NCBI GenBank assembly: GCA_021823405.1
Contig: JAKAOA010000008.1
Coordinates: 1-44,302, forward strand
From: Bacteroidota bacterium
GTDB lineage: Bacteria > Bacteroidota > Bacteroidia > JABEUT01
DNA length: 44,302 nt
Reading direction: 5' to 3'
The position numbers were made by a program, and so were the translations under genes. Shown here piece after piece: positions 17,667-22,052 of the stretch. Below the pieces are notes generated by a model. That model saw only the letters and a list, made by a program, of their open reading frames with translations, was not told the origin of the DNA and ran no database searches. Each line of letters opens with the position of its first letter. Within the stretch, counting starts at the first letter, position 1.

Positions 17667-17830
17667 AGCTTAACTTTTGATTTCTAATCAAATCCTTTCA
17701 TCAATTTTTATTGGCTTTATTCATTTGCGCTGCCTAATCCCAATTACAGCATCATTTTAGCAAGAAAATTAAGCACAAAATAAAATGACAACATCTACAA
17801 TAAACCAAAGTTAATCTTCTTTGCCTCTCA

Positions 17831-18127
17831 CCCTCTCCTTGCACAAGGAGAGGGTAGGGTGAGGTAGAGTAATGGTCTTTTGAGTTCAAGTGAACCCTCT
17901 CCTTGCACAAGGAGAGGGCAGGGTGAGGTAGAGTAATGGTCTTTTGAGTTCAAGTGAACCCTCTCCTTGCACAAGGAGAGGGCAAGGTGAGGTAGAGTAA
18001 TGGTCTTTTGAGTTCAAGTGAACCCTCTCCTTGCACAAGGAGAGGGCAGGGTGAGGTAGAGTAATGGTCGTTTGAGTTCAAGTGAACCCTCTCCTTGTGC
18101 AAGGAGAGGGCAGGGTGAGGTAGATTG
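17831..18127. repeat. Five tandem copies of a 64-bp palindrome-containing unit
   Basis: Units start at 17831, 17895, 17959, 18023 and 18087, exactly 64 bases apart; the last is cut after about 40 bases. Each begins with an 11-bp perfect inverted repeat CCCTCTCCTTG..CAAGGAGAGGG around a dinucleotide, followed by a G-rich stretch (AGGGTGAGGTAGA) and TAATGGTCTTTTGAGTTCAA. Units differ by single bases (TAGGG or CAGGG or CAAGG after the hairpin). In the fifth unit the central dinucleotide is TG instead of CA. A minus-strand frame through it (17950-18165) encodes only the repeat and is not a gene. Confidence 0.97.
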
Positions 18128-18239
18128 TTATTAAATAAATTATCAATATATGTACTATGTAACATATAATGTATATATTTGCGTTTTGTAACTACAAGCT
18201 ATGTGCGATGGGGCTTGGGAAAGGTTTAAATTATAGAAA

Positions 18240-18326
18240 ATGAGTTTGACAACAGAAAAATTGGCAAAGGAAGGAGTACTGCGTTATCGGGCAATTATAC
18301 TGAATGTGGATAAATTTGCGAATTGA
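18240..18326 (+). CDS. Possible 28-residue peptide or gene remnant
   Basis: ATG at 18240 opens a 28-codon frame (MSLTTEKLAKEGVLRYRAII..) with an amphipathic, protein-like composition. TATATTTG, a -7-like site, lies about 60 bases upstream. It may be a fragment of a larger lost gene or chance. I recognise no family and see no Shine-Dalgarno sequence. Confidence 0.2.
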   Translation: MSLTTEKLAKEGVLRYRAIILNVDKFAN

Positions 18327-18460
18327 ATATGAGCAAAGATACCCTACAGTCAGTTATAGCGATAAAGAATTTTCTCAAATTCATTATTTGTCGTTATATG
18401 TCATTTTTTAAATCATCGCCCTGCATTAATTTATCTCTTACATGCTCAAAAAGAGAAAAA

Positions 18461-18500
18461 TTAGACACTTTATATAGGGAACCTGTCCCAAAGTGTCTAA
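18461..18500. repeat. 11-bp inverted repeat, MITE-like or abutting element ends
   Basis: TTAGACACTTT (18461-18471) and AAAGTGTCTAA (18490-18500) are perfect reverse complements. Inside them GGGA and TCCC extend the pairing after a 5-base bulge. The arms have the look of terminal inverted repeats, but no transposase lies near. Confidence 0.75.
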
Positions 18501-18682
18501 ACGGTATTCCGGTGCAACAAGTAATGAGAGATACCACACCAAACAGTGAGAACACCTCTGATATGAATAGCTTGATTATCAGAATAAAAATAGTTCACAC
18601 TTCACTTAAGTTTTTTGAGCGGTTTTTAGGTTATTCAGTTAATATACGGCGAATAACTCGGCTATTGCAGACCTTATTTAAG

Positions 18683-18776
18683 GTATACGGGTGGTATACA
18701 TTCGTATACCCAGTGTATACAATCAACAACCTGTAAATCAATCATATAACTAAAAAATACGCCTAAAAGTGTATAC
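18683..18776. promoter_or_regulatory. Cluster of five GTATAC palindromes, four spaced 10-11 bp
   Basis: GTATAC occurs at 18683, 18694, 18704, 18715 and 18771. The first four are 11, 10 and 11 bases apart, so they face the same side of the helix. The second and third form GGTATAC-ATTC-GTATACC. The cluster ends 55 bases before a TAACTTTG -7-like site and 82 bases before the OmpA-like gene. A multi-site operator is the simplest guess. Confidence 0.5.
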
Positions 18777-18831
18777 CCGGTTTAGTTAATTGCTCTACCA
18801 TTACGATTTTTTCATCAACGCTATACTTTCG

Positions 18832-18839
18832 TAACTTTG
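18832..18839 (+). promoter_or_regulatory. Probable -7 element for the OmpA-like gene
   Basis: TAACTTTG matches TAnnTTTG and ends 19 bases before the ATG at 18859. A -33 TTTG is not evident. Confidence 0.45.
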
Positions 18840-18858
18840 CATAATTGGTTAACAAAGC

Positions 18859-20154
18859 ATGAAAGCGCGTACGAATATCCTCTTCCGCCATCGGTCAGTC
18901 AGCTTACAGCTGTTGATATTTTTATCTGTCGCTATTAACATTTCGTTGCTAAAGGCGCAATCTCCCTATGTTTGCGACAGTGCGATAGAGATTAACTATA
19001 CGAATGCTCAACATTTAAGGGTGCACGCCGGCGGAACCGCCAATCCGTTGCTTTCAATGCCTCATGCAAAGGGCAGATATTTCGAAAAACCCCATACCGT
19101 AGTATGGTTCACCTTTCTTGTTCCTTACGACACCTCTCTTACCTTCGAGCTAATGCCTGAAAATCATACTGACGACCTCGATTTCCTCCTGTTCAAAGAC
19201 CTGTCGGGCAATTTGTGCAACAGTATCATGAAGAATAAACGCCCTGTTGCCATAAGGGCGAACATAGCCAGTAATGCATTTACCACTTCGGGAAGTACCG
19301 GGCTTTCAGATTCAGCCCTGCATGACGTGGAACCCCCCGGCAGGCATCCTGCCTTCAGCAAGTCGCTGAAAGTGAAAAAGGGCGAACGGTATTATCTCGC
19401 CGTAGATGACTACACAAGGGCAACAGGTACTTTTGAACTCTCGGTGAATCTGCACTTCCCTGAACCTGTTAAACCTACTATTGAGCAGCGACCGAAGGTT
19501 ATAGCGCCCGCAACTGTAAGGACTAAGGCATCTGCCATTACTCTTAATATTGTGATAACGGACAGTGCCGGAACTCCGGTAAAAGCGAGAATAAAACTGG
19601 TAAAGGAGTTCGCAAAGCGACGTGCTGTAATTATTGCTGACACCACAGGCATTTCTGCATATACGGGAACCGTTGTACCGCGTCAGTTACTCAAAGTTAT
19701 ATGCATCGGCGAGGGTTACCTGTTATATCAATCGGAATTACGAATTGCCGATAGCCCCATGGTAATTTTCGATACTGTGCGGCTTGCATCTATCAAAGAA
19801 CATCGGACTATCGTATTGCAAGATATAGAATTTGAACCGGAGCAGGATATTTTTCTCGCCGCCGCCGCCGAGCCCCTATCCGAGTTACTTGCATTTATGC
19901 AGAATAATCCTGGGATACATATTCTTATTAAAGGATATGTAAATGACCCTTTTACTCAAAATTCGGGCAAGTGGGACATGGACCTGTCAGAGAAGCGGGC
20001 AAAGGCGGTGATGAAATATTTAACCGACCATGGTATTAATAAAAACAGAATGGATTGGAAGGGCTATGGCAATAAAGACATGCTTTATCCCAACCCCCAG
20101 ACAGCTGAACAGCAGATAGCAAACAGAAGGGTTGAGATTGAAATGGAGAAGTAA
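18859..20154 (+). CDS. Secreted OmpA-family protein
   Basis: The 431-residue protein has a signal peptide (hydrophobic core about 17-31, SLQLLIFLSVAINISLLKAQ), then a beta-rich domain around 35-200 (AIEINYTNAQHL..VVWFTFLVPYDTSLTFELMP) common in Bacteroidota surface proteins. A middle part around 220-320 follows, then a C-terminal OmpA-type peptidoglycan-binding domain (about 330-431; LSEKRAKAVMKYLTDHGINKNRM..GYGNKD..NRRVEIEM). It probably links the outer membrane to peptidoglycan. A cluster of GTATAC palindromes lies upstream. The gene is followed after 29 bases by DUF4271. Confidence 0.87.
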   Translation: MKARTNILFRHRSVSLQLLIFLSVAINISLLKAQSPYVCDSAIEINYTNAQHLRVHAGGTANPLLSMPHAKGRYFEKPHTVVWFTFLVPYDTSLTFELMPENHTDDLDFLLFKDLSGNLCNSIMKNKRPVAIRANIASNAFTTSGSTGLSDSALHDVEPPGRHPAFSKSLKVKKGERYYLAVDDYTRATGTFELSVNLHFPEPVKPTIEQRPKVIAPATVRTKASAITLNIVITDSAGTPVKARIKLVKEFAKRRAVIIADTTGISAYTGTVVPRQLLKVICIGEGYLLYQSELRIADSPMVIFDTVRLASIKEHRTIVLQDIEFEPEQDIFLAAAAEPLSELLAFMQNNPGIHILIKGYVNDPFTQNSGKWDMDLSEKRAKAVMKYLTDHGINKNRMDWKGYGNKDMLYPNPQTAEQQIANRRVEIEMEK

Positions 20155-20867: not shown

Positions 20868-22052
20868 ATGAGAATAAAAAGAATAATGGTTTCCCAACCC
20901 AAGCCGGAGTTGGAACGTTCTCCTTATTTTGAAATAGTCCGGAACTATGGCGTAGAAATAGATTTCCGTTCTTTTATACAGATTGAACCTATACCGAGCA
21001 GAGAATTTAGGAAAAACCGGATAGATATACTCTCTTATGGGGCGGTTATTCTTACCAGTAAAAACGCAGTCGACCATTACTTTAGAATGTGCGGCGAGTT
21101 GCGCATTATAGTACCTGAAACCATGAAGTACTTCTGTATTTCGGATGCCACTGCTTATTACCTCCAAAAGTATATCCAGTTCAGGAAAAGAAAAATATTC
21201 TCCGGCAATTACTCCTTTGCCGAACTGGTGGAAATAATAAAGAAGAAACATAAGGAGGAGAAATTCTTATTACCATGCGCCGTTGACTCTTCGGAAGAAT
21301 ATACGGAAATGTTGGATAAAGAAGGTATACGGTATGTAAAAGCGCCTATGTATAAGGCAATCTATTCCGAACTTACAGATATTAACTTTTCGGAGTACGA
21401 CCTTTTGGTGTTGTTCAGCAGTGCGGGCTTATCCTCCTTATTGCACAGCCATCCCGAATTCCGTAAAAATAATATTAAGATAGCGGCATTCGGCGAACAA
21501 ACCGCCGAAGCTATATTGGATGCTGGCTTAAACCTGCATATACATGCACCGCAACCGCACGCACCGTCAATGGCGATGGCGCTTGAAATGTACCTTAAAG
21601 GAGAACAGTCCAACCAACCTTGGCAGCAGATTCCCTTTAGTAAAAAACCGACGGCAAGCCATCAAAGTGATAAACAAAATAAGAATAAAACGGTTCATAA
21701 GCCAACGCGTGAAAAGGTATCGGAGCCAAAACAGTCCGCTCCTGATAATAAAACCAAAAAACCGGCGGTAGCCGCAAAGCAAACCGCGCACCCTAAAAGC
21801 AGCATTAAACCTGCACCTCTGAAAACCGCTCCGCAAGTGACGAAAAAGGGACGGCAATCGACCGGTGCAAATAAAACGCGTAACGACAGAAAACAAAAAC
21901 CGCAAAAGGCATCCTCTAAAATCCGCACGGTTTCCGTAAAAAAAACCACTCCGTTAAAAAAAGAGAAAGCCACAGCTAAAAATCCGGTTAAAGCGAAAAA
22001 GGGCGGTTCCGGCGGTAAAAAAGCCAAGGTTGCCCCGAAGCGGAAGAGATAA
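20868..22052 (+). CDS. hemD: Uroporphyrinogen-III synthase HemD with long basic tail
   Basis: Residues 1 to about 245 form a HemD-like protein (MRIKRIMVSQPKPELERSPY..., LTSKNAVDHYFRM, LLVLFSSAGLSSLL, IAAFGEQTAEAI). It should cyclise hydroxymethylbilane to uroporphyrinogen III in the cytoplasm. The last 150 residues are an added low-complexity tail rich in Lys, Pro, Ala, Thr and Ser (ends GGKKAKVAPKRKR) with no visible fold. The standard enzyme is about 250 residues, so the tail accounts for the whole excess. The tail's final codons overlap the region where the RNase P protein gene begins. Confidence 0.85.
   Translation: MRIKRIMVSQPKPELERSPYFEIVRNYGVEIDFRSFIQIEPIPSREFRKNRIDILSYGAVILTSKNAVDHYFRMCGELRIIVPETMKYFCISDATAYYLQKYIQFRKRKIFSGNYSFAELVEIIKKKHKEEKFLLPCAVDSSEEYTEMLDKEGIRYVKAPMYKAIYSELTDINFSEYDLLVLFSSAGLSSLLHSHPEFRKNNIKIAAFGEQTAEAILDAGLNLHIHAPQPHAPSMAMALEMYLKGEQSNQPWQQIPFSKKPTASHQSDKQNKNKTVHKPTREKVSEPKQSAPDNKTKKPAVAAKQTAHPKSSIKPAPLKTAPQVTKKGRQSTGANKTRNDRKQKPQKASSKIRTVSVKKTTPLKKEKATAKNPVKAKKGGSGGKKAKVAPKRKR

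Follow-up and report, generated by a model that had tools for sequence, protein, structure and literature searches.

Why do five copies of the palindromic hexamer GTATAC stand within 94 bp in front of an OmpA-like gene, and to what do they belong? In the window, by which we mean the whole analysed stretch of 44,302 nucleotides from a Bacteroidota bacterium, GTATAC starts at 18683, 18694, 18704, 18715 and 18771, i.e. with spacings of 11, 10, 11 and 56 bp, and the sixth and last copy lies at 21325. In the middle pair of the array (18694-18699 and 18704-18709) the two hexamers form an inverted repeat centred on ATTC, and its arms extend to GGTATAC/GTATACC. Dinucleotide shuffling predicts 8.36 GTATAC for the whole window, about one per 5.3 kb, and across 200 such shuffles the largest number in any 94 bp was three, hence the cluster pointed out in the initial annotation was confirmed and its positions are exact.

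A dispersed repeat in front of differing genes

The OmpA-like gene (PF00691; 18859..20154, forward strand) is a neighbour outside the element. In the relative G010 (locus L077) an OmpA-like gene of 66% identity was found with both downstream neighbours kept, and GTATAC is absent from the 10.8 kb of this syntenic locus. The expected conservation of the array upstream of the ortholog was therefore contradicted, and the reading as an operator kept alongside this gene was rejected. A co-operative protein-binding array, which had been suggested together with this tie, still appears to be the best reading of the anatomy; it is the connection to the OmpA-like gene that is not supported. A candidate promoter box of the gene's own, TAACTTTG (18832..18839, forward strand), lies past the border of the repeat, as read from a box scan made without chance control.

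A BLAST search of the own genome (G000; 2.82 Mb, 183 contigs) with window positions 18560-19200 gave 14 places with the array, counting that of the window. Three GTATAC separated by gaps of 3-6 bases occur at 12 places genome-wide, the same pattern reversed at none, and all 12 belong to these 14 places. The initial annotation had proposed such a genome-wide count, and had named absence of the array from relatives together with similar clustering in random A+T-rich DNA as the outcome that would speak against a function; the array is indeed missing at the syntenic locus, whereas the clustering reflects a repeat family and not random A+T-rich DNA.

The array-bearing part of this family, M3, comprises four helically phased hexads at its left (18682..18720, forward strand) and at its right end the fifth GTATAC followed by CC (18771..18778, forward strand). 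All 14 copies share a right border at window base 18778, within one base, and the flanks past it differ, except that part of the C68 flank is shared with C92b and C89a. According to the alignment of the 14 copies, the five hexads are all intact in eight and the first hexad is lost in five. By eye, five kinds of left context can be told apart, and M3 therefore behaves as a unit. Because several contigs end in these repeats, there may be more copies than were counted. When 601 bp of a composite copy were used as query against 10 congeners, the array was unmatched, and short leader-only matches (at most 64 bp, best E 2.9e-4) were obtained in three of them; the congener genomes are 52-98% complete, only two exceeding 90%, so that absence of the array is not proven for each single congener. 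The GTATAC words belong to a dispersed non-coding repeat and do not form an operator that is conserved together with the OmpA-like gene.

A pattern scan of named genomes yielded 17 stretches, nine of them archaeal, and the remainder of the element is absent from these 17 over the roughly 300 bp read in each. The archaeal stretches (L047-L051, L055, L058, L059 and L063, from Methanomethylophilaceae/Thermoplasmata) carry triple GTATAC at steps of about 11 bp, in L059 three times within 8 kb; at least six lie just behind apparent tRNA gene ends (by eye) and are perhaps related to integration.

Leader and modules of the composite element

The best reading of the window is that it holds a gene-less composite derivative made up of a leader and the modules M1, M2 and M3, with five 64-bp repeats at its left. 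All parts lie on the forward strand. The five tandem repeats (CCCTCTCCTTG..CAAGGAGAGGG units, 17830..18124) were recognized as five matches in a self-BLAST of L013 at 64-bp steps, and are followed by the shared promoter-like leader, LEAD (18107..18202), which is 88.5% identical to the C128 leader over 96 bp. Inside the leader TATATTTG (18174..18181) was read from the sequence as fitting TAnnTTTG, the consensus of the Bacteroidota -7 box; other leaders are similar by eye, and TATATATTTGCG of LEAD fits this consensus. Among the stretches examined 35 LEAD matches were counted, some of them split. M1 (dyad TTAGACAC..GTGTCTAA, 18449..18496) and M2 (imperfect inverted motif GTGAGAACAC..GTTCACACT, 18542..18601) were placed by BLAST and by their sequence. 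Most other copies of M1 have the dyad TTGGACAC..GTGTCCAA; the window differs from them in both arms together, as expected if the dyad matters. By eye, M1, M2, M3 and M5 share one plan: the motif on the left recurs inverted on the right, usually behind AAAAGTGT.

Module-bearing clusters numbered 44 in the fetched stretches, and two or more of LEAD, M4, M5, M1, M2 and M3 were present in 35. In all 35 the order is the same, LEAD, M4, M5, M1 (once or several times), M2, M3, with the reservation that the stretches were picked by likeness to one composite copy, a choice that may favour this order. In C113 and C176 the 64-bp repeat, and no other part, stands outside this order. Repeats similar to those of the window occur at other clusters as well; the tandem repeat with the CCCTCTCCTTG/CAAGGAGAGGG dyad stands left of many leaders and also elsewhere in the genome. 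Besides keeping this module order, the elements of the 44 clusters, e.g. that at 17830-18778 of the window, mostly face gene starts.

A 137-aa open frame runs through the modules (18323..18736, forward strand) and is probably no gene: Pfam and PHROG searches at E<=1 gave no family, and by eye the frame is broken in most copies. The array in frame 0 reads WYTxVYPVYTIN in many copies; conserved DNA would give such a likeness in any frame. The coding reading was rejected also because stops break the array frame in many copies and no family or phage match supports it, one related frame having PHROG matches only at E 0.04 or worse. An early suspicion that the array frame was the C-terminus of a phage primase was dropped, PF13148 having no match in the genome. 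Searches for a known RNA family returned microRNA models on the 64-bp repeats only, all below the gathering score.

HTH genes and the candidate sites behind some of them

One of the 14 M3 copies, in contig C92, is accompanied by an HTH gene; the other 13, including that of the window, are without it. In C92 the first hexad begins two bases past the stop of an intact HTH gene of 252 amino acids, and the gene is preceded by a leader with TATATATTTGCG that is LEAD-like by eye and uncalled by BLAST at E 0.001. This complete unit of leader, HTH gene and site, about 0.9 kb long, was found once. The 252-aa protein matches the PHROG family phrog_24579 (terminase small subunit) weakly, with E 5e-5, and Pfam HTH_Tnp_1_2 below the cut-off. 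Among eight aligned homologues, phrog_24579 matches seven at E<=0.01 (best 2.6e-8) and HTH_Tnp_1_2 matches six. A profile search of solved structures gave no significant match and no solved TerS structure; the top matches (E 0.04 or worse) are for the most part regulators of the TetR type. The assignment of the 252-aa protein to TerS is weak.

Further modules adjoin related genes. M5 stands at the 3' side of a homologous 142-aa gene in C156, and M1 was found twice 3' of a 148-aa TerS-like gene, which in C76 is followed, beyond M1, by the gene for a Terminase_3 large subunit. In the relatives G005 and G004 the gap between TerS and TerL also contains a dyad, of another motif (L113, L116). The own genome has one Terminase_3 gene, located beside a TerS other than the 252-aa protein, and is without a match to the portal-like gene that lies near TerS-TerL of the relatives G001, G004 and G009. 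The ORF list around the C92 unit, inspected by eye, contains no integrase-like ORF and no capsid gene adjoining it; there is no transposase gene within the unit and no phage neighbourhood around it, the surrounding genes looking like host genes, as do those on both sides of the C76 TerS-TerL pair. In viral contigs the pattern of the 252-aa protein matched five stretches, none of them confirmed as a relative, and the exact M3 array and M1 patterns had no match. For viral relatives of TerL the size of the TerS-TerL gap was obtained at 74 of 80 loci, and the 25 longest gaps were partly read by eye.

A separate observation concerns three congeners, in which TerS-like, TerL and portal-like genes (named by eye; L121, L122, L123) lie among apparent host genes. 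These packaging-type genes are 87-90% identical between species, and are possibly relict or domesticated.

A profile of the eight homologues detected 17 loci homologous to the HTH gene in 10 of the 395 genomes of the class, and 16 of them were evaluable, one being cut by a contig end. The layout of a motif, an IHF-type sequence and the inverted motif close behind the stop was, by eye, clear in four of the 16 (C92, C156, L101, L103), partial or weak in four (L104, the flank of which contains a run of N; L218, in which the IHF-type match lies before the dyad; and the weak L099 and L100) and absent in eight, including the three closest homologues (L096-L098, about 40% identity). L101 and L103 belong to other genomes, and their sites behind the stop have different motifs; the motifs among the homologous sites include GGTATAC, AACGGGTTGACAC, GGGGGGTGGGTAACA and GGGGGGTTTACA. 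The longest inverted arms of the four clear cases (L213, L221, L211 and L209 in this comparison) were reached by at most one of 100 shuffles. This holds for 7 of the 16 3' flanks, the others being L210, L216 and L225, of which L216 and L225 look like unrelated hairpins; the row of L219 was excluded from these statistics as void, since the true stop had been passed over.

The IHF consensus is WATCAANNNNTTR. Over 11 distinct segments it is exact in four, against a shuffle mean of 0.1 and with none of 400 shuffles reaching four, and it is found within one mismatch in nine, against a shuffle mean of 2.2 and a maximum of six in 400; the consensus was picked after the sequences had been seen, and the segments were cut by eye. 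As a consensus match, it is exact in 10 of the 14 M3 copies and has one mismatch in four, including the window. There the best match is AATCAACAACCTG (18721..18733, forward strand), and the position that is exact in the 10 copies (about 18736-18748) is degenerate.

A proposed pac-like site and its alternatives

We propose, with confidence somewhat better than even, that M3 is the recognition-site module of a solitary HTH protein resembling TerS, and that it works like a pac site of the P1 type. P1 pac is described as 161 bp lying inside pacA, with seven TGATCA/G hexamers, an IHF site and also a cleavage site (PMC10028697). TerS of phage SF6 is proposed to bind through a ring of weak HTH units selecting bent DNA (PMC4737164), and phBC6A51 appears among the small terminases in PMC11331095. 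On the basis of these three points a TerS-like assembly of the HTH protein on the array is proposed. The protein would assemble on the GTATAC array as TerS does on pac, binding co-operatively to the four hexads on successive helical turns; the DNA would be bent at the IHF-type sequence and the fifth hexad, at the far end, drawn into one joint complex. The M3 site would have spread over the genome mostly without the HTH gene. We infer the binding of the protein to the site and its TerS nature, as well as a service of the complex in packaging or in the spread of the element, and the way in which the copies move.

The likeness to P1 pac and PacA (PMC10028697) extends to four hexads on one side, a candidate IHF site and hexad(s) on the other side, and in C92, one of the 14 copies, to a place at a weakly TerS-like gene; in the window phased repeats indeed stand on both sides of the centre, four at 11/10/11 bp and one after 56 bp. 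The M3 site differs in being about 98 bp long with 4+1 GTATAC and in lying just 3' of its gene, not inside it. Moreover it resides in a host chromosome in 14 copies, 13 of them without the gene, rather than in a phage genome (the genes around C92 and the C76 pair look host-like by eye), and packaging would be its presumed role. An element-encoded TerS-like protein with its own site recalls SaPIs and PICIs (PMC6687093), although SaPIs measure 14-16 kb as against 0.1-1.1 kb and many copies for the elements here; the combination of an integrase, an own TerS and pac was not found beside the C92 unit, where by eye an integrase-like ORF is missing. Pseudo-pac sites of P22 in Salmonella are chromosomal sequences that can pass for a packaging start (PMC11226127); here, in contrast, the repeat family is a dedicated one, its layout is composed and its members are no chance look-alikes, and packaging is its putative role. 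Dispersed small-terminase sites of this kind were not described in the titles or abstracts among the literature matches listed. REP/BIME sequences with RAYT transposases, and MITEs, are short palindromic non-coding repeats spread in intergenic DNA with a mosaic structure. The GTATAC element resembles them in being short, palindromic, intergenically dispersed and mosaic, and differs from REP/BIME in that the associated gene is HTH/TerS-like, that the two Y1 transposase loci of the genome lie away from the modules, and that a left inverted repeat is missing.

Because co-operative repression also suits helical phasing, leader and arrays could be a mobile regulatory cassette for downstream genes, a portable operator with the HTH protein as repressor, which we regard as rather unlikely. 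Its best point is that the next gene past the right end, taken by an automatic ORF choice in which a few calls are ambiguous, is co-oriented in 13 of the 14 M3 copies; among the other 30 clusters, 25 were examined (C14:14369, C23, C76:14684, C135:187 and C152 being left out), with 18 co-oriented, three opposite and four without a gene in the stretch. Such co-orientation may come from target choice, from selection or from use of the LEAD promoter. A TetR-type regulator is brought to mind by the nearest solved structures, not significant as they are, and by a Frankiales MAG (L061:3172-3208) in which four GTATAC at 10, 11 and 10 bp lie between divergent genes, one of them TetR-like by eye. An operator of this type would be a promoter site at a set distance; the M3 copies, however, stand in front of differing genes with 81 to 872 bp to the next start, the genes look unrelated by eye (e.g. 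the OmpA-like protein and what is apparently ribosomal protein L21), candidate native promoter boxes lie past the border in 9 of 14 copies at variable distance (in a scan without chance control), and in C92 the site stands 3' of its own HTH gene. A non-autonomous, MITE-like transposable element with the array as subterminal transposase-binding region is in our view unlikely. The dispersal of the element, its array unmatched in the 10 congeners, the common right border, the 13 gene-less copies and the constant module order would all fit it, but terminal inverted repeats at both ends were not found: in the window GTATAC is absent upstream of the array and there is no matching left inverted repeat, and the left contexts fall into five kinds by eye. 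Furthermore the C92 unit has no transposase gene, and the two Y1_Tnp loci detected in a search for the Y1 family are module-free across the 3.2-3.3 kb examined, giving no link to a RAYT/REP system.

The genome-wide frequency of the hexamer bears on a further explanation, namely that GTATAC is a methyltransferase target, the arrays being methylation sites, either protected or regulatory. Outside the modules, 15 GTATAC were seen in 299 kb of own-genome stretches against 64.4 expected, while the pooled congener stretches (166 kb) are not depleted (41 seen, 46.3 expected). The own-to-congener ratio is the second lowest of 46 palindromic hexamers, after CATATG, which is itself very strongly depleted in the own-genome stretches (7 seen, 73 expected in the same 299 kb); it is as if two sequence-specific systems act on the genome. 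Since GTATAC is depleted in the rest of the genome and not in the congener stretches, modification sites are still conceivable, and the depletion could come from a methyltransferase system or from selection against stray binding sites. The M1 and M2 motifs are not depleted, therefore depletion is no general property of these sites. We nevertheless find the restriction-modification explanation very doubtful: the sister modules, similar in layout, are built on different motifs, most of which are not palindromic, GTATAC is likewise missing in the congener G010 taken alone (0 seen, 3.0 expected), and the one pair seen near C92, a ThaI-type restriction endonuclease (PF15514) with an N6/N4 methyltransferase at L016:9934-11447, about 3 kb away from the unit with the intact HTH gene, is of a type that cuts CGCG. 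Highly improbable, finally, is a decoy function, in which the site arrays would titrate away the small terminase that an infecting phage brings and thereby interfere with packaging; the composites do combine different site modules, several in a row and mostly gene-less, but no phage with such sites was found, the viral contigs being free of the exact M3 and M1 patterns.

The pac-like reading can be carried further, to a speculation that we consider a long shot: the chromosome would be seeded with promoter-led packaging-initiation sites for several TerS-like proteins, in constant order and mostly facing gene starts, methylation of the M3 hexad would in addition gate recognition (cf. Dam in P1 pac), and host DNA could be packaged by whichever terminase is present. 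If this were true, the strings of sites would amount to a genome-wide system of transduction, either domesticated or parasitic.

Work on small terminases and their sites normally deals with phages. The solitary TerS-like genes described here stand among apparent host genes, some of them are followed by a site that is similar in layout and different in motif, and in a single species one family of sites has expanded. Provided that the proposed binding is true, the homologous protein/site pairs with their different motifs would reveal how the DNA specificity of terminases changes, and one could map the dispersed sites as potential points at which packaging of host DNA begins.
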